A DNA stretch of 64,000 bases. It comes from Novosphingobium marinum (GTDB taxonomy: Bacteria; Pseudomonadota; Alphaproteobacteria; Sphingomonadales; Sphingomonadaceae). Each line of letters starts with the position of its first letter. Position 1 is the stretch's first letter. Positions 1 to 8,833 of this stretch are shown piece after piece. The notes under the pieces are model-generated. The model was not told where the DNA came from. It was given only the letters and a program-made list of their open reading frames with translations, and did not search any database. The position numbers and the translations under genes are program-made. The stretch spans positions 1 to 64,000 of the forward strand of contig NZ_JACBZF010000004.1 in the NCBI RefSeq assembly GCF_013408095.1, given 5' to 3'.

Positions 1-104
1 GACTACTCGCTCCCTGCTCTTGCGTATCCTCAGCCATCACCACTCAGTGGCTGGCGCCGCCTACCTCGACAAGGCGGCCTGCACGCCACGGTTACTTCCC
101 CACG

Positions 105-452
105 ACGGTTCTTGTCGTCGAAGACGAACTTCTCATTCGAATGGATGTCGTCGACCAATTGCAAACTGAGGGTTTTCAGACGCTCGAAGCAGGGACAGGT
201 CGGGAAGCGCTTCATCAAATGGAGGGCGACAGACAGATCGATATAGTCTTCACGGATGTGGACATGCCCGGCAACGTCAACGGGATCGTTCTTGCCCATG
301 AGGTGCGTGAAAAATGGCCATCGGTCGGCATTATCGTGACCTCGGGACAGGCCGTTATCAGTGTAGATACTCTTCCTGCAGGAGCTCACTTCTTCTCGAA
401 GCCTTATGAGATGAAGGCCATTTTCGCGATTATTCAAGAGCTAATTGCATAA
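105..452 (+). CDS. response regulator receiver-domain protein, 5' end unresolved
   Basis: Stand-alone phospho-acceptor (REC) domain with no output domain, so probably a relay or sensor-kinase partner protein. The reading frame gives the classic first strand TVLVVEDE, containing the acidic pocket, then a phospho-acceptor Asp in IVFTDVDMPG (codon at 255), a Ser/Thr in IVTSGQ and the conserved Lys in FSKPY. The first in-frame ATG is at 141, but starting there would delete the first strand and the acidic residues. No ATG, GTG or TTG occurs in this frame between the window edge and 141, although the frame stays open to the edge. The gene therefore either starts upstream of the window as a fusion, uses an odd start near 105, or has a damaged 5' end. 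The upstream translation does not look like protein. Confidence 0.7.
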   Translation, partial: TVLVVEDELLIRMDVVDQLQTEGFQTLEAGTGREALHQMEGDRQIDIVFTDVDMPGNVNGIVLAHEVREKWPSVGIIVTSGQAVISVDTLPAGAHFFSKPYEMKAIFAIIQELIA

Positions 453-464
453 GACACCGTGCGC

Positions 465-489
465 GGAACGCTTAAAATTAAGGGTGGTT
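465..489 (+). promoter_or_regulatory. possible EcfG-type general stress promoter
   Basis: GGAAC at 465-469, then 17 nt, then GTTT from 487, matches the GGAAC-N16/17-GTT pattern of alphaproteobacterial EcfG promoters. It lies 13 nt after the receiver-domain stop. No convincing plus-strand gene follows, so a transcript from here would be noncoding or antisense to the small gene at 657-881. A chance match is quite possible. Confidence 0.25.
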
Positions 490-656
490 TGGTCAGCCGC
501 GGAGTCAATGCTGAGGCAGAATCTTGGGCGTGAGAAGTCGTTGCTGAGATAGCCTTTAAGAGGCCGAACCCTTCATCCGTTGGACATGTCGATCGAACGC
601 GTAGCGGGCGGATTATGAGCACCGTAACCATTAAAACCTACGCAAGTCACCTCGCA

Positions 657-881
657 TCAAAAGAAGCCCCGTCCCTGCAGCGAGTTCGCCTGAGCGTCGT
701 CCGCCTTCTTCAACCGGGCCTTTTCGCGAACAGCTTCGACCTTCCTGGCGTGGTCAGCTAGTTTCGAAAACATCGCCTCGGAGCGCAATGCTCGCAAACG
801 AACGTTTTTCAACGTTGATTCCGCTGCCTCCGCCTTCGCTTCAGCCGCGCGGGCAGAATAGTATTTGTAACCTTGCTGCAT
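657..881 (-). CDS. small charged coiled-coil protein, paralogue of the one at 48761-48976
   Basis: A 74-residue Ala/Lys/Glu/Arg-rich protein, probably one long amphipathic helix with no signal peptide or membrane segment. It shares the pattern RAAEA-x-AEA, TL-x-NVR-x-RALRS and LAD-x-AR with the 71-residue protein at 48761-48976. Both copies lie directly downstream of a cold-shock gene on the same strand at almost the same distance (78-79 nt). The two-gene arrangement therefore looks like a duplicated cassette. The function is unknown. A stress-linked nucleic-acid-associated role is an inference from the neighbour only. The unusual C-terminus (SLQGRGFF) is absent from the other copy. Confidence 0.7.
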   Translation of the reverse strand: MQQGYKYYSARAAEAKAEAAESTLKNVRLRALRSEAMFSKLADHARKVEAVREKARLKKADDAQANSLQGRGFF

Positions 882-959
882 TCAGACCTTCCCTTGAAAA
901 ATTGATAGCACGCGGCGTGGGGGACGAATTCCTTCACGGCGCGCGCCATCGTCATAGGA

Positions 960-1169
960 TCAACTGGCGTTGCTCAGGTTGACGGCGCTGGCCTTGCCGT
1001 TGCGCCCGGTCTCGAGTTTGTAGTGGAGCCCCTGATCCTTTTCGAGCGTGGTCATGCCCACCGCCTGGACTGCGGAGATGTGGACGAAGCTGTCGGCAGA
1101 GCCGTCATCGGGCTGGATGAAGCCATAGCCCTTGTAGCTATTGAAAAATTTTACGGCACCGATCGTCAT
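960..1169 (-). CDS. CspA-family cold-shock protein
   Basis: A 69-residue single OB-fold nucleic-acid chaperone. RNP1 is GYGFIQP and RNP2 is SFVHIS, both with the aromatic and basic residues that bind single-stranded nucleic acid. The frame is open for 63 codons upstream, but the ATG at 1169 is preceded by a strong AAGGAGG Shine-Dalgarno (plus-strand 1174-1180) and gives the family's usual N-terminus. It is followed on the same strand by the small coiled-coil gene at 657-881. The same gene pair occurs at 48761-49268, and the two cold-shock proteins share QPDDGS-x-DSFVHI and the C-terminal GRNGK-x-SAVNLS. Confidence 0.93.
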   Translation of the reverse strand: MTIGAVKFFNSYKGYGFIQPDDGSADSFVHISAVQAVGMTTLEKDQGLHYKLETGRNGKASAVNLSNAS

Positions 1170-1362
1170 TTCGCCTCCTTCCAAGAAATGTTGGAGTCCG
1201 GCTCGCCGGGATTGCGAGCAGGGGTCATGCGTCAAGTCGTCAATTGAAAGGGGGTCGCCCCCTTGAAGGCACGAGAAATGGAATGATCTGATTCCCGCGC
1301 CTGTCGTTGATACCCCTCGAAATTCAACGAGAGCAGGGTTTGTATCGCAAGTTTCCATGCAA

Positions 1363-1587
1363 TTAGATGGCCTTATCCAATCCTTTCATTGATCCCGAAG
1401 GAGCCATGAGGTGCGCATTGCTCCATGCGCAGGCCGCCGCAGCGCCTAGGCCGTGCTGAAAATCGCTTATTCGTCCCGCTATTCGGGAGGCTTTTGCGAG
1501 CTTCGCGAGCCGGTCATCGTCGTTGGCAGCCGCATCGGCGCCCATAAGTGCGCGCTGGTGTGCGGCATATTCAAGGTTCAAGTCCAT
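1363..1587 (-). CDS. small hypothetical protein
   Basis: A 74-residue protein beginning MDLNLEYAAHQRALMGAD. The ATG at 1587 is chosen because a GGAG Shine-Dalgarno lies 7 nt upstream; a longer frame to 1623 has no ribosome site. The N-terminal half is charged and helical, the C-terminal half Ala/Gly-rich. There is no signal peptide, membrane segment or recognised motif. It lies between the minus-strand IF-1 gene and the cold-shock gene, in a run of very small same-strand genes that look stress related. Confidence 0.55.
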   Translation of the reverse strand: MDLNLEYAAHQRALMGADAAANDDDRLAKLAKASRIAGRISDFQHGLGAAAACAWSNAHLMAPSGSMKGLDKAI

Positions 1588-1842
1588 GTCAGTTCTCCTG
1601 CGTGGGCGGGAATGCTGATGCATGGCCGCTGGTTGAATTGCGTGTCAGTCGACCATGGTCGCGACGAGGCGTCGCAATTCGAGGGTCGGGATTATTGCGA
1701 CAATGGGCGGATAACCCTTTCTCGCCAGCGAGTGCGATGCGCCATAGCGCGGCGAAAGTATGGCACGCGACGTGGCGCGTGCAGTGCTGTCGTTCATTTG
1801 TCTTGTATCCGGCAGGTCCATCCTGCCGCTTTCATAAAAGTG

Positions 1843-2109
1843 TCAGCGCCTGTATCCGCGCTTGCGAACACCGCCGGGGCCTTGCCCGGGTGTTCGTTCG
1901 CGAAAGACGATCCGGCCTTTGGTCAGATCGTAAGGCGTCAGTTCGACATGTACGCGGTCTCCAACGACCGATCGGATGCGGTAGCGGCGCATCTTGCCTG
2001 CAGTGTAGCAGATCAGACGATGCTCATTATCGAGGGTGACGCCGAAGCGGCCATCGGGCAGGATCTCGTTGATCTCACCCTCCATCGTAATGAGCTCTTC
2101 CTTCGCCAA
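1843..2109 (-). CDS. infA: translation initiation factor IF-1, long-tailed form
   Basis: OB-fold factor that binds the ribosomal A site during initiation. The N-terminus [11 protein letters not shown] and the core [11 protein letters not shown] and [14 protein letters not shown] are diagnostic. At 88 residues it is longer than the usual alphaproteobacterial IF-1 of about 72. The extra C-terminal tail ([16 protein letters not shown]) is basic and glycine-rich, as in the accessory IF-1 copies some alphaproteobacteria carry beside a standard infA. Its setting among cold-shock-like genes fits a stress-condition copy, which is inference. It appears monocistronic, with about 250 nt of noncoding DNA upstream. 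Confidence 0.92.
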
Positions 2110-2357
2110 TCCATCTTCCTAGCGTACGAAAAATCATCCGCGCGGACGGATTCCGCTGCGGAGCCAGGTTGTATGAAATGGATTGGCGCCGATCTCACGC
2201 TTAAGCGCTAAGTGCAGCAATCAAAATCCGCCGCAAACGACGCTGGGCAATTTCAATATAGCATGCTGTAAAAAAATTACAAGCCCTCACGCAATGATGG
2301 ACAGTAATTGTTTAATGGGGGTTTCCGTGAAAGGCGCTTCCTGCGTTGCCATGTCCA

Positions 2358-2561
2358 TCAACCCAACTGCCTCCGATGCTCGGCCATCGCATCTTCAAGG
2401 TTGGTGTAGCTGTATTTCCCAACCCGGTAGTGGGTCACGGTAACGGCTTGGATGCCCTCAGGCAGTTTTTCCTCACGGGAACTCAACGAACCGCCTTCGC
2501 TTTCCCATTGACGGGTTGCGGGTGTTTCCTTCGAGACGGGCCCAGCATCTTTAGCGTTCAT
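2358..2561 (-). CDS. small hypothetical protein
   Basis: A 67-residue hydrophilic protein with start MNAKDAGPVSKETP. This ATG lies 1 nt after the stop codon of the upstream gene and has an AAGGAAG ribosome site 11 nt before it, so the two genes look translationally coupled. Further in-frame ATGs at 2582 and 2591 would extend it by up to ten residues and overlap the upstream gene. The C-terminal part (VTVTHYRVGKYSYTNLEDA) could form a small beta-sheet fold. I do not recognise a family. Confidence 0.6.
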   Translation of the reverse strand: MNAKDAGPVSKETPATRQWESEGGSLSSREEKLPEGIQAVTVTHYRVGKYSYTNLEDAMAEHRRQLG

Positions 2562-2562
2562 G

Positions 2563-2760
2563 TTATCGGTCGCTTCCTTCATGACGATCATCTTGAGACC
2601 ACTCGGTCACATGCCTGCCGGTTCTGCTCTGCGCCGCTCTGATCCGTTTCGCGTAATAGGCGACGAGATCGAAATGGGTTTGGCGCTCTTCCGCCGAGTT
2701 TGACCGCGCGGCATTTGTTTTCGCCAGCTCGTGATTGCGGATCAACTGTTCGAGAGTCAT
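2563..2760 (-). CDS. small hypothetical protein
   Basis: A 65-residue, highly charged, probably helical protein starting MTLEQLIRNHELAKTNAA. The start is supported by an AGAGGAG Shine-Dalgarno about 8 nt upstream. The sequence has the look of a short cytosolic helical-hairpin protein and contains no cysteine, signal or membrane segment. It is the first gene of a two-gene unit with 2358-2561 and sits downstream of a hairpin that may terminate the cold-shock-like gene at 2829-3077. The function is unknown. Confidence 0.6.
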   Translation of the reverse strand: MTLEQLIRNHELAKTNAARSNSAEERQTHFDLVAYYAKRIRAAQSRTGRHVTEWSQDDRHEGSDR

Positions 2761-2789
2761 TGCTGGGCGGCTCCTCTGGCGCTTGAGGC

Positions 2790-2823
2790 GAGAAGGCCGG
2801 CGTTCATCGACGCCGACCTTCTC
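2790..2823 (-). terminator. hairpin between small genes, likely transcription terminator
   Basis: GAGAAGG-C-CGGCGT (2790-2803) pairs with ACGCCG-A-CCTTCTC (2810-2823) around a 6-nt loop, giving a 14-position stem with one internal C/A mismatch. It lies just past the stop of the minus-strand cold-shock-like gene ending at 2829. No clear U-tract follows, so termination efficiency is uncertain. Confidence 0.5.
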
Positions 2824-2828
2824 AGGTG

Positions 2829-3077
2829 CTAACCCTGCTGGGCGCGAGCCTGCTCCTGCTGCGGATCACCCTGCTGCTGCTGGAGATTCACCGCGCGCAG
2901 GTCCTGGCCGTCGACCTGATTAGTCTCGTAGCCATAGCGATCGCCGATCTTCGGCACCTGGGATTCCTGTTGCAAATCCGCCTTGCCGAACGGGAGCACG
3001 TTGCCGCCCTTTTCAGGACTGATCGTGCCGGCTCCCTTGCCACTGTCGTAGCTCTTGATCTTGCCGAAATGTGTCAT
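2829..3077 (-). CDS. cold-shock-domain-like protein with altered RNA-binding motifs
   Basis: An 82-residue protein. MTHFGKIKSYDSGKGAGTI aligns with the first strands of a cold-shock domain, and the C-terminal VNLQQQQ follows the usual domain end. The aromatic residues of RNP1 (normally KGYGFI) and RNP2 (normally VFVHF) are replaced by KGAGTI and VLPFGK, so classic single-stranded nucleic acid stacking should be weakened. A Gln-rich tail follows. The start is supported by a GAAGGAAG ribosome site. It is a second CSD-type gene in this 3-kb stretch, though a divergent one. Confidence 0.7.
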   Translation of the reverse strand: MTHFGKIKSYDSGKGAGTISPEKGGNVLPFGKADLQQESQVPKIGDRYGYETNQVDGQDLRAVNLQQQQGDPQQEQARAQQG

Positions 3078-3441
3078 AAGAAACTTCCTTCAATTTCGCG
3101 CAGGCCATCATCAGCGATCGCTTTTGCGCGCGCTAAGAGGCGAAAAAGAAAGAAGGGAGGGCCAAAACTTTCAGCCTTCAAGACCGTCGATCGCGACTGG
3201 TAGCTGCTAAAGAGATGGGGAGCTTGCATCGCGAAACAAGGTGTGAAGGACATTCGCTCGATAATACGATCCAAAATTGATAGTCTGCAGCTTCTGTAGG
3301 TCTATTCTCCAAAATCAGTCGGACCGAAATCGGCCCATTTCTGACCAATCGATGGCGCTCGGATCCAATCCAGATAGTCCGATTTTAACGCCGCGAGCGA
3401 TTGAAAAAACACACGGTACCGTCAATGGCTACCCTGGCGTA
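3078..3441. other. intergenic region, no gene seen
   Basis: 364 nt between the minus-strand cold-shock-like gene and the end of the GGDEF-EAL gene. Short open frames exist on both strands but none has a ribosome site or protein-like composition. It must contain the promoter of the cold-shock-like gene. Composition is AT-richer than the core genome. Confidence 0.5.
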
Positions 3442-5751
3442 TCATGCCGACAAGCGCTTCGATTTGTCATTAACGTCGCCAAATATATTTCCTAGATCGG
3501 CGGCCGGGGTCGGCTTTCCAAAAAGGTATCCTTGGATGTAACGACATCCTTCTCGCCGTAAGACTTCGAGTTGATCCTCTTGCTCGACGCCCTCTGCCAG
3601 AGTTTCCATACCAAGTGCTTCGGCGAGAGTTGTTATCGCACGGATGACAGCATGCGCGTTCACTTCTTTTGATATGGCCTGGACGAAACTGCGGTCGATT
3701 TTCACCTTGTCGAAAGGAAAGGATCGAAGATAGCTCAGCGAGGAATAGCCAGTTCCGAAATCATCCAGTGCAATCCTCACGCCAAGCGCGCGCAGGCTGT
3801 GCAAAGTCGAGAGTGTCTTTTCGACATTTGCAATGAAGATGCTCTCGGTAATTTCAAGTTCGAGCCGCTTGGGCGAGAGTTCGCCATGCGCAAGCGCCTG
3901 CATGATTGTCTGGGACAGTCCCGGTGAGGCAAACTGTTTTGGCGAAATGTTGACCGCAACGGACAGTTCGCCCGGCCAGGTCGCAGCCTGCTGGCAGGCT
4001 TCTCGCAGCACCCATTCGCCAATCGGAATTATCAGGCCCGTTTCTTCGGCCAGTGGAATGAATTCAGCCGGACTGATGAAGCCAAGCTCAGGGTGGAACC
4101 ACCGTATGAGTGCTTCGAAGCCCTTAAGCTCTTCCTCAACCGCGCCGTATAGCGGCTGGTAGTAGAGCTCAAACCCGCCGTCGCGCAGGGCCATGCGCAT
4201 GTCGAGTTCCATTTGTCGCCGCTTGCGCGCTTCCTCGTCGAGCGAAGGCTCGAAAAAGTGATATGCGGCCTTGCCCTCGCTTTTCGCCCGGTAGAGCGCC
4301 AGATCGGCGTTCTTCATTAGGACCGTGCCGTCCCGACCGTCACCCGGAGCGACAGCGATACCAAGGCTGGCAGAGGACTCCGCAAGCTGCCCGTCGATCA
4401 TGAGGGACCGCTGGAAGCAAACGAGAATCTCGGAGGCAATTGCCGCCAAACTGCGGTCACTGCCGAGATTGTCGATCAGCAGCGCGAACTCATCGCCGCC
4501 CAGTCGCGCGACAAGCGCGTCGGGCAGGTTTTCGCGAAGATGCGCTGCAACATCACACAGGAGCCTGTCGCCTGCAGGATGGCCAAGCGTGTCGTTGACC
4601 ACCTTGAAGTCGTCGAGATCGGCGTAAACGACCATCAAGCGCCCGGAATCATCGAGCCGGCGGACAGCCTGGTCGAGCTGTTCCACGAAAAGCTTGCGAT
4701 TGGGGAGCCCGGTCAAGCCATCGTGCAGTCCGACATGGATGATCTTGCGTTCACGATCCTCGATCGCCGAGGACATCTTGTTGAAGCTGTCTGCAAGCCG
4801 CCCGATCTCGTCGTCTGTCTCCGCCTTCAGTTCGAAAACGCGCCCTTCGCTGATGGCGCGTGTCGCCTCGTCCAGTTTCTGCAACGGGCCAGTAACTGTG
4901 CGCGCCACGCGCCAGCTAAGGGCGATCACGAACAGGACCGCGGCGATGGCCAGCGCAACAAGCCAGATTTGCAATCGCGTGTACTGCGCGAGTGATGCAT
5001 CGAGCGAGTGCTGCAGCACCAGTCTTGGCTTTAGGTCATCCTGGAGCGCAGGGAGAGGCGAAACATGGAATAAAGTCGACTGCCCCTCAGCACGCTGGAA
5101 TACTGAATCATTCGGAGCGGAGAGCATCCAGTCCGGCATGGCTGCCGGGAGCATGACCCGGGCTTCGACGTCGACCGCCGCGAGTTTTGCCAGTCGGTCC
5201 AATTCTGCCTTGTCGAGCGGTTGTGCAAGGACCAGCCAGCCGATCGTGTCAGGCACCTCGACCGGGGAAGCTGCGGCAAGCGCCAGTTCTCCACCGACGG
5301 CAATGATTCCGCGTTGCTGCCCTTCATCGAGCGGATACCACAATGCATCCGGATTCCCGATCCGGGCGTCGCCCGAGGCAAGCAGCTTTCCGTCCACACC
5401 GATGACGAAAGCGGCATTCGCGTCCGACCGGGACTTCAGGCTTTCAAGCGCACTGTCGATAGTGATTGCGTCGTTAGTCGCCACAGCTTCGCGAAAACCA
5501 AAATCGCGGGAAAGGACTTCGGATGAGCGGCGTAACTGGCGCGCGCGCAGCTCCAAGATTTCGTCGAACACCCGCGCATTCGATTCCAGATCGCGTGTCG
5601 CGCTTGCTTCGCCGAATCGGCTGAGGGCGTTTCCTGCCACGAGCACCACGACGGCAAGCACTAGCGCAAACAGCCCGGCATAAAGCGAAGCTATGCGCAG
5701 CTTTAGCGAGCCGAACCGCAATTTATCGAAAGTCCTGAAAGCGCGGGTCAT
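3442..5751 (-). CDS. membrane GGDEF-EAL c-di-GMP enzyme with periplasmic sensor and HAMP
   Basis: A 769-residue inner-membrane signalling protein. Transmembrane segments are at about 20-40 and 261-280 and enclose a periplasmic sensing region of about 220 residues. HAMP follows (about 281-333), then GGDEF (about 340-500) with an intact RLGGDEF at 416-422, then EAL (about 515-755) with EAL at 546-548, DDFGTGYSS at 663-671 and a complete C-terminal GYLFGKP. Both catalytic sites look intact, so it may make and break c-di-GMP. No RxxD product-inhibition site precedes GGDEF. Its start overlaps the end of the cupredoxin gene by 4 nt, so the two are coupled; the periplasmic cupredoxin could feed its sensor domain, which is inference. 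Confidence 0.93.
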   Translation of the reverse strand: MTRAFRTFDKLRFGSLKLRIASLYAGLFALVLAVVVLVAGNALSRFGEASATRDLESNARVFDEILELRARQLRRSSEVLSRDFGFREAVATNDAITIDSALESLKSRSDANAAFVIGVDGKLLASGDARIGNPDALWYPLDEGQQRGIIAVGGELALAAASPVEVPDTIGWLVLAQPLDKAELDRLAKLAAVDVEARVMLPAAMPDWMLSAPNDSVFQRAEGQSTLFHVSPLPALQDDLKPRLVLQHSLDASLAQYTRLQIWLVALAIAAVLFVIALSWRVARTVTGPLQKLDEATRAISEGRVFELKAETDDEIGRLADSFNKMSSAIEDRERKIIHVGLHDGLTGLPNRKLFVEQLDQAVRRLDDSGRLMVVYADLDDFKVVNDTLGHPAGDRLLCDVAAHLRENLPDALVARLGGDEFALLIDNLGSDRSLAAIASEILVCFQRSLMIDGQLAESSASLGIAVAPGDGRDGTVLMKNADLALYRAKSEGKAAYHFFEPSLDEEARKRRQMELDMRMALRDGGFELYYQPLYGAVEEELKGFEALIRWFHPELGFISPAEFIPLAEETGLIIPIGEWVLREACQQAATWPGELSVAVNISPKQFASPGLSQTIMQALAHGELSPKRLELEITESIFIANVEKTLSTLHSLRALGVRIALDDFGTGYSSLSYLRSFPFDKVKIDRSFVQAISKEVNAHAVIRAITTLAEALGMETLAEGVEQEDQLEVLRREGCRYIQGYLFGKPTPAADLGNIFGDVNDKSKRLSA

Positions 5752-6365
5752 CGCATTCGCAGCTTGTACCTGCGCGATTGGCTTCCACTCGAAATGGTTA
5801 CGTCACTGGAAGTTTCATTGCCGGGACTGCGCAGCCGGGGATGCCATACGCCCACAGTCGCGCCTCCTGCCGGGACCGAGGTGAGTGTCACAAAACCATT
5901 GTGATCGGTCTTGCCCGCGAACGGCGTATCGGTGACACGGATATAGCCGCGCATCTCATCATGGATGTTGCAGCCGAGTGCCACGGTTCCGGCAATTAGA
6001 AAGCCCTGTGTGCGGGTTTGGTCCCGACCGTAGAGATCAATGCTGAATTTAGCTGCCTTGGAAAAGCTGTAGATCGAGTGCCGGACGTTATCGAGGTTCG
6101 GGAACGCTACAGTGCTGCCGCGCGCCACGATGAGCGTACCGGGGACGAATTCGCGATCCTTCTGCGCCATCGCCTTTCGCCACGGGAATGAAATGCGACC
6201 CGATGTCCCGCCAGCAGGCTTCAATTCGACGACTGCATCGCGCACCGGCAATCCGCGTTGGTCGACCAGTTGCACGGTGATCGACGACGAGGGCGCGGCA
6301 TTTGCAGCAAAACCCGCCGCGCAAGCCAGCCCGCTTGTGATCAGCAAGGTTAGGAGTTTCGCCAT
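5748..6365 (-). CDS. periplasmic amicyanin/plastocyanin-like cupredoxin (methylamine-utilisation-type)
   Basis: A 205-residue secreted protein with a signal peptide (about residues 1-23, cleavage after ANA). A complete type-1 copper site is visible: His96 (VRHS), then Cys132-x2-His135-x2-Met138 in GCNIHDEM, the ligand spacing of amicyanin. An N-terminal Ig-like or carboxypeptidase-regulatory-like segment (about 28-60) precedes the copper domain. Such proteins are often annotated as methylamine utilisation proteins, but no methylamine dehydrogenase genes are seen here. It is co-transcribed with the GGDEF-EAL gene (4-nt overlap) and divergent from the DUF3034 and globin genes over an 85-nt gap. 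Periplasmic electron transfer or copper/redox sensing is plausible. Confidence 0.85.
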   Translation of the reverse strand: MAKLLTLLITSGLACAAGFAANAAPSSSITVQLVDQRGLPVRDAVVELKPAGGTSGRISFPWRKAMAQKDREFVPGTLIVARGSTVAFPNLDNVRHSIYSFSKAAKFSIDLYGRDQTRTQGFLIAGTVALGCNIHDEMRGYIRVTDTPFAGKTDHNGFVTLTSVPAGGATVGVWHPRLRSPGNETSSDVTISSGSQSRRYKLRMR

Positions 6366-6450
6366 CGGGATGGAGTTAGCGCCCTGATATTAATAATCCC
6401 TCGCGCCTTGCTTAAGTGGTCATTTACCAAGGCAGGTTAGCAGCGGCTGC

Positions 6451-7326
6451 ATGACCGTAATTTGGAAGACAGCAGCCACATTGGGCGCTCTGACCTTTAG
6501 TGCGGCTGCGCAAGCGGAAGACTTCGCCTGGTTCGAAGGCGATAAGCTCGTCCTTACCAACGGCGTGTCGACAATCGAAGGTGCAAGCGGGGGCGGACTT
6601 GCCAGCTGGGCAACGATCGCGGGGCGCGAGCTTGAAAACGGTGTTGGCATCTCTGGCCATGCGACAATCGTCGAATTGTCCGACTACGGTTGGCAAAGCC
6701 ACGGCGTATCGGTCGGCATCGCCAATCGCGTCGAGCTTTCCTACGCACGACAGAATTTCGACACACGCGATGTCGGCGCCGCGCTGCGTATCGGCAAAGG
6801 CTATAAGCTCAACCAAGATGTTTACAGCGCAAAGGTGCGCCTGTTCGGCGACCTCGTCTACGGCGACCCGCTGGTGCCGCAGGTAAGCGTAGGAGTGCAG
6901 CACAAGCGCAATCTCGACGGGCCTATCGCTGCATTAGTGGGAGCGGGCAGCGACGAGGGTACCGACTACACGCTCAGCGCCACGAAGCTATTCCTGTCTC
7001 ACAGCGTTCTTGCAAGCGCAACCGTGCGGCTGACAAATGCCAACCAGAATGGTCTGCTCGGGTTCGGCAATGCGTCCGGCAAGGGCAAATCGGTGGAATT
7101 CGAAGGATCGCTTGCTTACCAGCTATCGCGCCGCTTTGTCCTTGGCGCCGAATACAGGACCAAACCGGATAACCTGGGGCTGGGCGAGGAAGACTGGTTC
7201 GACCTGTTCGCCGCCTATGCCGTAACGGACAACGTCACCGTCACAGGTGCCTATGTCGACCTTGGTTCCATCGCGACATTCGAGAACCAGCGCGGTACAT
7301 TCCTTTCCGCGCAGATCGCATTCTGA
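6451..7326 (+). CDS. DUF3034 outer-membrane beta-barrel protein
   Basis: A 291-residue protein with a clean signal peptide (cleavage after AAAQA, near residue 22) and alternating polar/apolar strands typical of an outer-membrane barrel, ending in Phe (QIAF) as expected for BAM substrates. FEGDKLVLTNGVSTIEGASG near the N-terminus matches the DUF3034 family as I recall it. It heads a plus-strand pair with the truncated globin (12-nt gap) and is divergent from the cupredoxin/GGDEF-EAL pair. The ribosome site is weak, but the signal peptide supports the ATG at 6451. Substrate is unknown. Confidence 0.82.
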   Translation: MTVIWKTAATLGALTFSAAAQAEDFAWFEGDKLVLTNGVSTIEGASGGGLASWATIAGRELENGVGISGHATIVELSDYGWQSHGVSVGIANRVELSYARQNFDTRDVGAALRIGKGYKLNQDVYSAKVRLFGDLVYGDPLVPQVSVGVQHKRNLDGPIAALVGAGSDEGTDYTLSATKLFLSHSVLASATVRLTNANQNGLLGFGNASGKGKSVEFEGSLAYQLSRRFVLGAEYRTKPDNLGLGEEDWFDLFAAYAVTDNVTVTGAYVDLGSIATFENQRGTFLSAQIAF

Positions 7327-7337
7327 AGGACGACACG

Positions 7338-7865
7338 ATGGTCGTTTCCATAATTGCAGCGCTGCTAATGCAGCAAGTCCCGGAGGAGAATGTCGACTGG
7401 GACAAGGAGTTCGGCGTCGAAGAGCGCGTGCGAGACCCGGAAACCGGGGAATTTCCCGTCGATCCCTACACTCAAAGCAATGACAACGCCGGGGCAAAAC
7501 CTTTCTCCTCCGACAGTCTTGCGCGAGAGTTCGGGGAGCAGGAAGGCATTCGCCGTATTGCGGATCGCCTCGTCGAAGTAAGCAAGGAAGATCCGCGCAT
7601 TTCCGAGATCTTCGTGTCGCACGACATGGTACGACTGAAACGCACCCTGTTCGAACAGTTCTGCTACATCCTGAACGCCGGCTGCGACTACACCGGCCGC
7701 GACATGAAGACCGCGCACACGGACATGGGCCTGCGCAAGGCCGACCTGAACGCGCTCGTCGAAAATTTGCAGTTCGTCATGCGCGAACAAGGCATCGCCT
7801 TTGCCGCCCAGAACCGATTACTCTCGAAGCTCGCACCTATGTCTTACGACTTGATTGAGCGTTAA
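7338..7865 (+). CDS. group 1 truncated haemoglobin with N-terminal extension
   Basis: A 175-residue protein. The globin part covers about 62-172: an N-terminal FGEQEGIRRIADR helix, the TGRDMKTAH segment with proximal haem ligand His127, and a C-terminal helix. At the position of the usual distal Tyr (B10, motif F-Y) it has Leu78-Val79, so ligand stabilisation should differ from classic NO-dioxygenating trHbN. The first 60 residues are an acidic extension with a short hydrophobic start (MVVSIIAALL) that could be a weak secretion signal. An AAGGA ribosome site overlaps the DUF3034 stop codon, so the two are one operon. Confidence 0.88.
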   Translation: MVVSIIAALLMQQVPEENVDWDKEFGVEERVRDPETGEFPVDPYTQSNDNAGAKPFSSDSLAREFGEQEGIRRIADRLVEVSKEDPRISEIFVSHDMVRLKRTLFEQFCYILNAGCDYTGRDMKTAHTDMGLRKADLNALVENLQFVMREQGIAFAAQNRLLSKLAPMSYDLIER

Positions 7866-8122
7866 GGCGGCGTGGACAAATTCAGCGAAGCTTTTCGACG
7901 ATGGCCACTTTGAGGTCGCCGACAAAAGGTTCGAAACCGTACAGGCAGAAGCCGGCCCAGGTTCTGCCAAAAGATGGTTTTACCAAATGAACCCAGAACG
8001 CTGCCGGGCGAATGCAACCCTGCTGTCGGGAGGGTGAGGGGCTAAAAAAGCCATCTGCAAATCCCGCGATACCTTCAGTTCGTGGCTGGCGGAGATGAAC
8101 CGTTTTGCCCTCGCCTATTGCT

Positions 8123-8833
8123 TCAATTTCTCTGCAGCTCGAACAATTTGGCTGGGCGCCCGCCGGTCAGCTTCTCGCGGCCGGTCGCGCGCAGCCGGGA
8201 GCCATCGGGGAAAATGCGTGCAAGCATGCGCTTGCGAAACCGAACCTTGTCGACAGCTTCGCCGAGGATCACCTCGTGCACCTGCTGGAGTTCGAGCAGC
8301 GTGAACGCCGGTGGAAGAAACTCGAACGCAATGAGCGAGTTCTCGAGCATTTGTCGGAGGTAGGCGATGGCCTTCGCGATCATCGCCGCATGGTCGTAAC
8401 CTGCCGCAACCGGGTGTCCCTCAAGGGACAGGTCGCAAATGTCATCATTCGCCTGAATTGCTGTCACGATCCGGAACCTTTTGTCCTGCTCGAGGCGAAC
8501 TTCCAGATCATCGAGCTCGACTATCGCTGCATAAGTGGCACTGACTCCGCGAGCCTTCGGGTCCCGCCCCGGTTTGCTGCACACGCCGACCAGGCGCGGC
8601 TCGCAAGGGTACATTCCGAGCTGGGCCAGAATAACATGTGCCGTAGCGTCGAGATCCCTGTCACCGCGCAAATAGCCTCCCGGCAAGGCAAGCCAGCCTT
8701 TGAAGGGCTCCGCTTCGCGCTCCATCATGAGGACGACCAGGCTGCCATTCGCGATGGCGCAGATGGCGAGCTCGGCGCGTAGCGTAATGCCATCGACACG
8801 CTGATACTCGTCAAGATCGAAGTCCGAACTCAT
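8123..8833 (-). CDS. NrtR-like regulator: inactive Nudix domain plus winged helix
   Basis: A 236-residue protein. Residues about 1-150 form a Nudix-type fold with GWLALPGGYL, but the catalytic box that follows (residues 52-74) lacks the metal-binding glutamates, having VIL-x-Q where REL-x-EE is expected. Residues about 160-225 form the winged-helix domain typical of NrtR (FEFLPPAFTLLELQQVHEVI). NrtR proteins repress NAD-metabolism or related genes and sense ADP-ribose-type ligands through the dead Nudix pocket. No NAD gene lies nearby, so the target may be elsewhere or the regulator itself. About 260 nt of noncoding DNA separates it from the globin gene. Confidence 0.82.
   Translation of the reverse strand: MSSDFDLDEYQRVDGITLRAELAICAIANGSLVVLMMEREAEPFKGWLALPGGYLRGDRDLDATAHVILAQLGMYPCEPRLVGVCSKPGRDPKARGVSATYAAIVELDDLEVRLEQDKRFRIVTAIQANDDICDLSLEGHPVAAGYDHAAMIAKAIAYLRQMLENSLIAFEFLPPAFTLLELQQVHEVILGEAVDKVRFRKRMLARIFPDGSRLRATGREKLTGGRPAKLFELQRN

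Follow-up and report, generated by a model that had tools for sequence, protein, structure and literature searches.

A cupredoxin, a c-di-GMP receptor, an outer-membrane barrel and a truncated globin as a candidate signalling module in Novosphingobium marinum

Why is a blue-copper protein encoded beside a membrane enzyme for cyclic di-GMP (c-di-GMP), and why do an outer-membrane barrel and a truncated globin stand next to them? This question is raised by a locus of Novosphingobium marinum located at positions 3442-7865 of the analysed stretch of 64,000 nt (hereafter, the window), in which the genes for a cupredoxin and a GGDEF-EAL enzyme are divergent from those for a DUF3034 protein and a globin. 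The initial annotation had proposed a system that converts a periplasmic signal into c-di-GMP changes. In the present analysis, the open reading frames (ORFs) were checked, six window proteins were scanned against Pfam, and the four families were followed through other genomes. The four genes were found together far more often than expected by chance, and it is likely that they constitute a signalling module. The sensor most likely lowers c-di-GMP upon a periplasmic redox or nitric oxide (NO) cue, and for this we infer the copper and haem loading, the physical contacts, the signal and the direction of the response.

Association of the four gene families

Co-occurrence was determined in a sample of 398 Pseudomonadota genomes. 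This is a fairer base than the set of named loci, which comprises the best 80 of 590 confirmed cupredoxin relatives and leans to window-like loci. DUF3034 was found in 39 of the 398 genomes and in 28 of 213 genera; one locus per genome was scored, the window included, and a decayed second copy (L070, genome G078) was not counted. DUF3034 was adjoined by a globin of one type in all 39 loci; 33 loci had a cupredoxin gene within 5 kb and 31 a nearby GGDEF-EAL gene scoring at least 600 bits, while 1.9 loci were expected for any EAL protein within 5 kb. The corresponding tail probability, calculated from EAL counts with relatedness ignored, was 3e-35. Counted by genome and again ignoring relatedness, the globin was present in 39/39 genomes with DUF3034 and 2/359 others, and the cupredoxin in 38/39 and 13/359, respectively. 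The association of the four genes is far above chance. The initial annotation had stated that these families co-occur in other proteobacteria, which the genome counts confirm, and had named a lack of significant co-occurrence as one result that would refute its reading; the counts do not refute it. As an observation apart, the decayed copy (G078:C3) is a DUF3034-globin pair with stop codons, and an intact copy lies elsewhere in the same small genome.

Globins of the module type occurred in 41 genomes, 39 of which contained DUF3034, and scored at least 136 bits, the next score being 93 bits. The search model was built from DUF3034-linked globins and is hence biased to them; the two globins without a DUF3034 link (G154, G328) still scored above this gap. 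Cupredoxins of at least 120 bits were obtained from 51 of the 398 genomes. By hand count, they occupied 57 places, 33 at DUF3034 and 24 elsewhere. On retrieval of 23 of the latter (L073-L095; G233 was left out), 15 were found with a GGDEF-EAL gene of at least 200 bits and 13 with altOMP, a second putative barrel family. Eight DUF3034 loci had no GGDEF-EAL gene of at least 600 bits, and five of these genomes carry a cupredoxin and GGDEF-EAL unit elsewhere (L074-L077, L089), which is co-occurrence without linkage. The best 80 of 590 cupredoxin loci were distributed over Alpha- (63), Gamma- (10) and Betaproteobacteria (4) and Desulfuromonadia (1), with two unplaced. Carriers of the module include non-pathogens amenable to laboratory work, for example a Brevundimonas and a Pseudomonas chlororaphis strain.

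The cupredoxin and its c-di-GMP receptor

The window protein is securely a cupredoxin. The copper ligands H96, C132, H135 and M138 are present, and this HCHM set was retained in 140/140 aligned cupredoxins, including that of the window. No Pfam match above the cut-off was obtained for the window protein, only a weak match to CarboxypepD_reg, and its profile matches were copper nitrite reductase, pseudoazurin and amicyanin. The AF2 model (mean pLDDT 93) gave amicyanin 3ply as its top Foldseek match (E 2.4e-7, target TM-score 0.69, both for a predicted structure). Thus, the earlier description as an amicyanin-type cupredoxin with complete copper ligands holds. The fold and the C-x2-H-x2-M spacing are common to amicyanin and pseudoazurin, but the module protein differs from both in carrying an extra C-terminal Ig-like domain and in having a signalling receptor as its genetic partner.

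To describe this partnership, 137 cupredoxin rows were used. As they had been gathered at DUF3034 loci or for their similarity to the window, their proportions are biased towards DUF3034. A GGDEF-EAL gene (at least 200 bits) lay within 4.5 kb of the cupredoxin in 122 rows. The barrel beside it was DUF3034 in 93 rows, altOMP in 23, both in three and neither in 18. altOMP is a family of approximately 410 aa that replaces DUF3034 in many cupredoxin loci (e.g., L087:9573-10793). Two members were scanned without any Pfam match above the cut-off, and no match to solved structures was obtained; a signal peptide, a repeated aromatic strand pattern and a sub-cut-off OMP_b-brl match mark it as a putative outer-membrane barrel. 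Comparison of the DUF3034 and altOMP profiles using hhalign gave a probability of 10%, that is, no clear relationship. On a quick cupredoxin tree with many weak branches, parsimony requires at least 10 switches between the DUF3034 and altOMP labels; on the starred branches alone, five changes were counted for the DUF3034 label and two for altOMP.

The gene order and the output also varied around this pair. The enzyme gene was reversed yet still adjoining the cupredoxin gene in six loci (L130, L132, L137, L138, L150, L158). In L094 (G154), a module-type cupredoxin stands beside a dCache_3-HAMP-Ser/Thr kinase, the dCache_3 match being just above the cut-off, and in L097 and L098 remoter relatives (104-115 bits) adjoin hybrid PAS-histidine kinase-receiver proteins. 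Cupredoxin-linked signalling may extend beyond c-di-GMP. A dCache input shared by the histidine-kinase neighbours was considered and dropped after no dCache match was obtained in L097 or L098. A MauG-type dihaem cytochrome c peroxidase is also encoded in L097, between the cupredoxin relative and the histidine kinase protein. Since the barrel, the gene orientation and, once, the output interchange around the cupredoxin-receptor pair, the cupredoxin appears to be part of the receptor input, which is the main argument of this analysis. Whether it is a direct partner of the receptor we judge to be evenly balanced.

In the case of the enzyme, Pfam E values in the window were 2.1e-77 for EAL, 7.9e-38 for GGDEF, 3e-10 for HAMP, 2.8e-7 for CHASE4 and 9.4e-6 for dCache_3, and a dCache_3 input domain was found in 38/40 receptors. 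As first noted, the window enzyme has kept both its GGDEF and its EAL motif, and a canonical RxxD inhibitory site was not found in it by inspection. For the family, the best enzyme per locus was scored at 115 loci, of which 5 were dropped for gaps. The ten catalytic residues of EAL (E, N, ExxE, DD, K, ExxE, Q) were all intact in 109 of the remaining 110 enzymes and in the window, while GG[DE]EF was intact in 48 of the 110 and in the window. The difference indicates that c-di-GMP hydrolysis is the conserved activity, and the conserved output of the family is predicted to be that of a c-di-GMP phosphodiesterase; the enzyme of the window is possibly bifunctional, with cyclase activity as well. 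The initial annotation, which spoke of c-di-GMP changes in general, is corrected here in that phosphodiesterase is the conserved activity.

The same evidence could be read as a sensor of copper or cuproprotein status, in which the loaded or empty cupredoxin reports periplasmic copper, the barrels serve as channels for copper or a metallophore and the globin has been added independently. The invariant type-1 ligands, the pairing with two barrels of no clear relationship and the occurrence of the cupredoxin-receptor pair without a globin away from DUF3034 all suit this explanation. However, type-1 copper sites usually serve electron transfer and not metal buffering, and CueR-like half-sites were found in just 5 of 60 divergent promoters. 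We consider it unlikely, although it survives better than the other alternatives.

The truncated globin and the barrels

The window globin matched Bac_globin in Pfam (E 3.9e-5), and its nearest solved relatives were 2gl3 (E 2e-24) and 1idr (E 1e-23). A set of 101 globins of the module type (at least 120 bits, two of them not beside DUF3034) was compared with 24 other globins, a non-random group taken from 20 stretches hand-picked among lower-scoring matches, some of the globins being cut by the stretch end. Export features were scored by simple sequence rules and not by a signal-peptide predictor. A hydrophobic N-terminal segment was present in 101/101 module-type globins, a lipobox in 30/101 and a C-x6-C pair in 97/101; the comparison globins had 11, 1 and 3, respectively. 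The family is probably exported, and export of the window globin is suggested by its relatives. By the enterobacterial Lol rule, the residue after the lipoprotein Cys decides outer-membrane sorting. This residue was never Asp in the 30 lipobox globins (30/30), which is compatible with their sorting to the outer membrane. Three comparison globins (L181-L183) share the Cys pair, the apolar pocket and the signal peptide, so exported-looking globins are not confined to the module family. Separately, other exported-looking truncated globins sharing this apolar pocket and Cys pair were seen in L200, L201 and L202 (G086, G383, G362) with no DUF3034 or cupredoxin near; globins of this type possibly form a wider uncharacterised class.

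The haem pocket was compared by alignment to HbN of Mycobacterium tuberculosis, the nearest solved relative, in which B10 Tyr and E11 Gln act at the bound gas. The proximal F8 His, common to HbN, was present in 101/101 module-type globins. Unlike HbN, these globins look exported, carry the conserved C-x6-C pair and have mostly apolar residues at B10 and E11: B10 was V/L/I/M in 99/101 and Asn in 2/101, E7 was L/F/V/I in 101/101 and E11 was L/F/I in 101/101, the window having Val, Leu and Leu. The HbN pair was found in 0/101, while B10 Tyr and E11 Gln were each found in 13/24 comparison globins. An HbN-type NO dioxygenase role was lowered in rank, the pocket having no hydrogen-bond donors; a pocket of this kind could accommodate NO or CO. 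Thus, the truncated globin of the initial annotation was confirmed as to family, with the changes that the family looks exported and that its pocket is not that of HbN.

These data also bear on a second alternative, a redox enzyme pair in which the exported globin receives electrons from the cupredoxin and detoxifies NO or peroxide in the periplasm, the c-di-GMP enzyme being merely co-regulated. The two proteins could plausibly carry single electrons within a shared compartment, and 33/39 DUF3034 loci encode both; moreover, L056 and L061 have adjoining globin and cupredoxin genes without a GGDEF-EAL gene, and the peroxidase gene of L097 lies beside a cupredoxin relative. Nevertheless, the absence of the HbN residues, the lack of a globin at all 10 altOMP-only loci among the best 80 of 590 and the company of the receptor in 122/137 cupredoxin rows make this explanation still less probable than a copper-status sensor.

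The DUF3034 protein was identified by PF11231 (E 6.7e-92). There are 12 long strands in its AF2 model (mean pLDDT 81.5; unreliable at residues 1-26 and 46-49), and the protein is predicted to be an outer-membrane beta-barrel, in agreement with the first description. Foldseek matches of this predicted structure were FapF, OmpG and NanC. The likeness to FapF was weak (query TM-score ~0.5, 11-12% identity), with OmpG-like porins close behind, and no single barrel function is picked out at this level. Among the best 80 of 590, 60 of the 62 DUF3034 loci had a globin, the other two (L105, L129) running into a contig end, and the altOMP-only loci had none (0/10); L128 and L159 had both barrels plus a globin. 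DUF3034 and the globin are a separable unit. This qualifies the initial proposal of one periplasmic-signal-to-c-di-GMP system, which is supported by co-occurrence and remains the best reading: the DUF3034-globin part is separable, and the cupredoxin pairs with GGDEF-EAL enzymes away from DUF3034. An outer-membrane unit that moves a hydrophobic compound, haem or a polypeptide, tuned by the cupredoxin and the c-di-GMP enzyme for biofilm formation, would suit the inseparability of DUF3034 and globin (39/39), their occurrence without the other two genes within 5 kb in L036, L062, L064, L067 and L069 and a nearest fold in an amyloid secretion barrel, but the weak FapF match with porins close behind speaks against it and we regard it as improbable, on a level with the redox pair.

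Promoter, proposed mechanism and known systems

The ORF check confirmed four intact genes in the divergent arrangement first described (Table 1). The cupredoxin gene overlaps the start of the GGDEF-EAL gene by ATGA, which makes translational coupling plausible, and the globin gene begins 11 nt after the DUF3034 gene.

Table 1. Features of the locus and its surroundings in the window
Feature	Position	Strand	Details
Membrane GGDEF-EAL enzyme, 769 aa	3442..5751	-	Transmembrane segment, dCache_3/CHASE4-type periplasmic domain (~residues 44-262), HAMP, GGDEF, EAL; Pfam and active-site columns
Exported type-1 copper protein (predicted), 205 aa	5748..6365	-	Signal-peptide-like N-terminus, amicyanin-like cupredoxin, C-terminal Ig-like domain
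Divergent intergenic region, 85 nt	6366..6450		ORF coordinates
CtrA-type box TTAAGTGGTCATTTAC	6412..6427	+	TTAA-N7-TTAAC, 1 mismatch; kept in other alphaproteobacterial copies
DUF3034 protein, 291 aa, predicted 12-stranded outer-membrane barrel	6451..7326	+	PF11231, AF2 model, Foldseek FapF/OmpG
Group-1-like truncated globin, 175 aa, exported-looking family	7338..7865	+	F8 His, Cys pair C109/C116, apolar distal pocket
NrtR/NtrR-like Nudix-type transcriptional regulator	8123-8833	-	Adjoins module; side observation

The third-position GC content (GC3) was 0.62-0.72 for the ORFs picked in window positions 1-8833 and 0.79-0.94 for many further on; some ORFs past 8833 fall below the latter range, and there may be spurious ORFs among the picks. 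This hints that positions 1-8833, the module included, are a variable or acquired region.

The divergent promoter was examined in 60 intergenic regions (58 alphaproteobacterial and two of unstated class), taken as the span between conserved protein cores and thus including some coding sequence. A CtrA-type box was first spotted by eye in 11 of them, and the fixed consensus TTAA-N7-TTAAC was then run on all 60; PMC11264516 gives TTAA-N7-TTAA as the CtrA consensus. The box was present with at most one mismatch in 26/60 (shuffled mean 1.2, maximum 5) and with at most two in 53/60 (shuffled mean 11.9, maximum 19). In control segments of the same length, 2/60 reached at most two mismatches, these segments being drawn from locus starts and differing in composition. 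The 64-kb window alone contained two CtrA-type sites, a number not above chance (mean 1.03). The window genome encodes CtrA above the curated cut-off. From these motif counts, the alphaproteobacterial locus probably belongs to the CtrA regulon of motility and cell-cycle genes, and such membership fits a phosphodiesterase favouring the motile state. According to PMC7232146, the CtrA regulon of Dinoroseobacter shibae includes HNOX and c-di-GMP genes.

The preferred explanation is a trans-envelope c-di-GMP module. The cupredoxin would act as a periplasmic co-receptor, whose copper redox or ligand state alters its engagement of the dCache domain of the receptor; the receptor would then mainly change c-di-GMP hydrolysis, the sole strictly conserved catalytic function. 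Loci of the DUF3034 type would have, in addition, a haem arm towards the outer membrane, formed by the globin next to the barrel; the barrel may admit the cue or haem, or anchor the globin. The apolar pocket would suit NO or CO better than the stable binding of O2, and for this reason NO or a related redox cue is the preferred signal. We hold this full explanation to be about as probable as not, and NO as the physiological cue to be possible but doubtful. A bolder version, in which blue-copper proteins are periplasmic sensor subunits of dCache receptors for c-di-GMP and, at least once, a Ser/Thr kinase, in which the globin of the DUF3034 variant, with an NO-selective pocket at the outer-membrane side, hands the NO or redox state on to the cupredoxin, and in which periplasmic copper-haem chemistry directly sets c-di-GMP, seems unlikely to hold as a whole.

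Several results weigh against the preferred explanation. The association p values ignore shared ancestry. One sampled genome, G078, has DUF3034 and globin without any cupredoxin, cupredoxin and GGDEF-EAL are both absent within 5 kb in 5 of the 39 DUF3034 loci (those named above), and 15/137 cupredoxin rows have no GGDEF-EAL gene within 4.5 kb. Within the sensor domain (residues 44-262), conservation of Cys, His and Met exceeds 60% in none of the columns, so that a site of copper or haem contact is not marked there. The N-terminus of the window globin is an atypical signal, being short and hydrophobic with no basic residue and no clear cleavage site. No dCache domain was recognised in the histidine kinases of L097 and L098. 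Finally, motifs of FNR/NnrR, NsrR, Fur and CueR-like type occurred in 0 to 5 of the 60 divergent promoters, none recurrently, and control by NO or copper therefore finds no support in the promoter.

Control of a membrane c-di-GMP enzyme by a periplasmic protein is already known. In the YfiBNR (TpbB) layout, as in HmsCDE, such a protein controls an inner-membrane c-di-GMP enzyme and an outer-membrane partner takes part. The module resembles these systems in this respect but has a type-1 copper protein, a predicted 12-strand barrel with a globin and a dCache_3 receptor with a conserved EAL domain; YfiBNR has a YfiR-type periplasmic protein and the OmpA-like lipoprotein YfiB, but a Pfam scan up to E 1 gave neither a YfiR nor an OmpA match in any of the three partner proteins. 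PMC8846402 describes the HmsC-HmsD pair as redox-linked through periplasmic cysteine pairs, and also globin-coupled sensors such as DgcO, in which a globin is tied to a GGDEF or EAL protein. The module globin differs from the latter in being unfused, encoded by a separate gene on the opposite strand, probably not cytoplasmic, and truncated and group-1-like. H-NOX genes beside c-di-GMP genes and in a CtrA regulon appear in PMC7232146, and NO sensing by Cache domains (haem-c Cache sensors) in PMC12889525. With both, the module would share a haem or NO input to c-di-GMP, but its haem would be carried by a truncated globin that is a protein of its own. The Pfam scan of six window proteins gave no H-NOX (HNOB) match, and since no Cys is conserved in the sensor-domain columns, there is no conserved CXXCH, unlike in haem-c Cache sensors.

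No description of the four-part combination, of its components or of their exchange as seen here was found in the open-access PMC literature, where absence is no proof; DUF3034 is mentioned there in two papers, once in each. For many c-di-GMP receptors no input signal has been assigned, and the module offers concrete, purifiable partners for one receptor type. It also provides a hypothesis of function for DUF3034 and for the exported-looking globin class, and it suggests that copper and haem redox chemistry may be tied to the switch between motile and sessile states.

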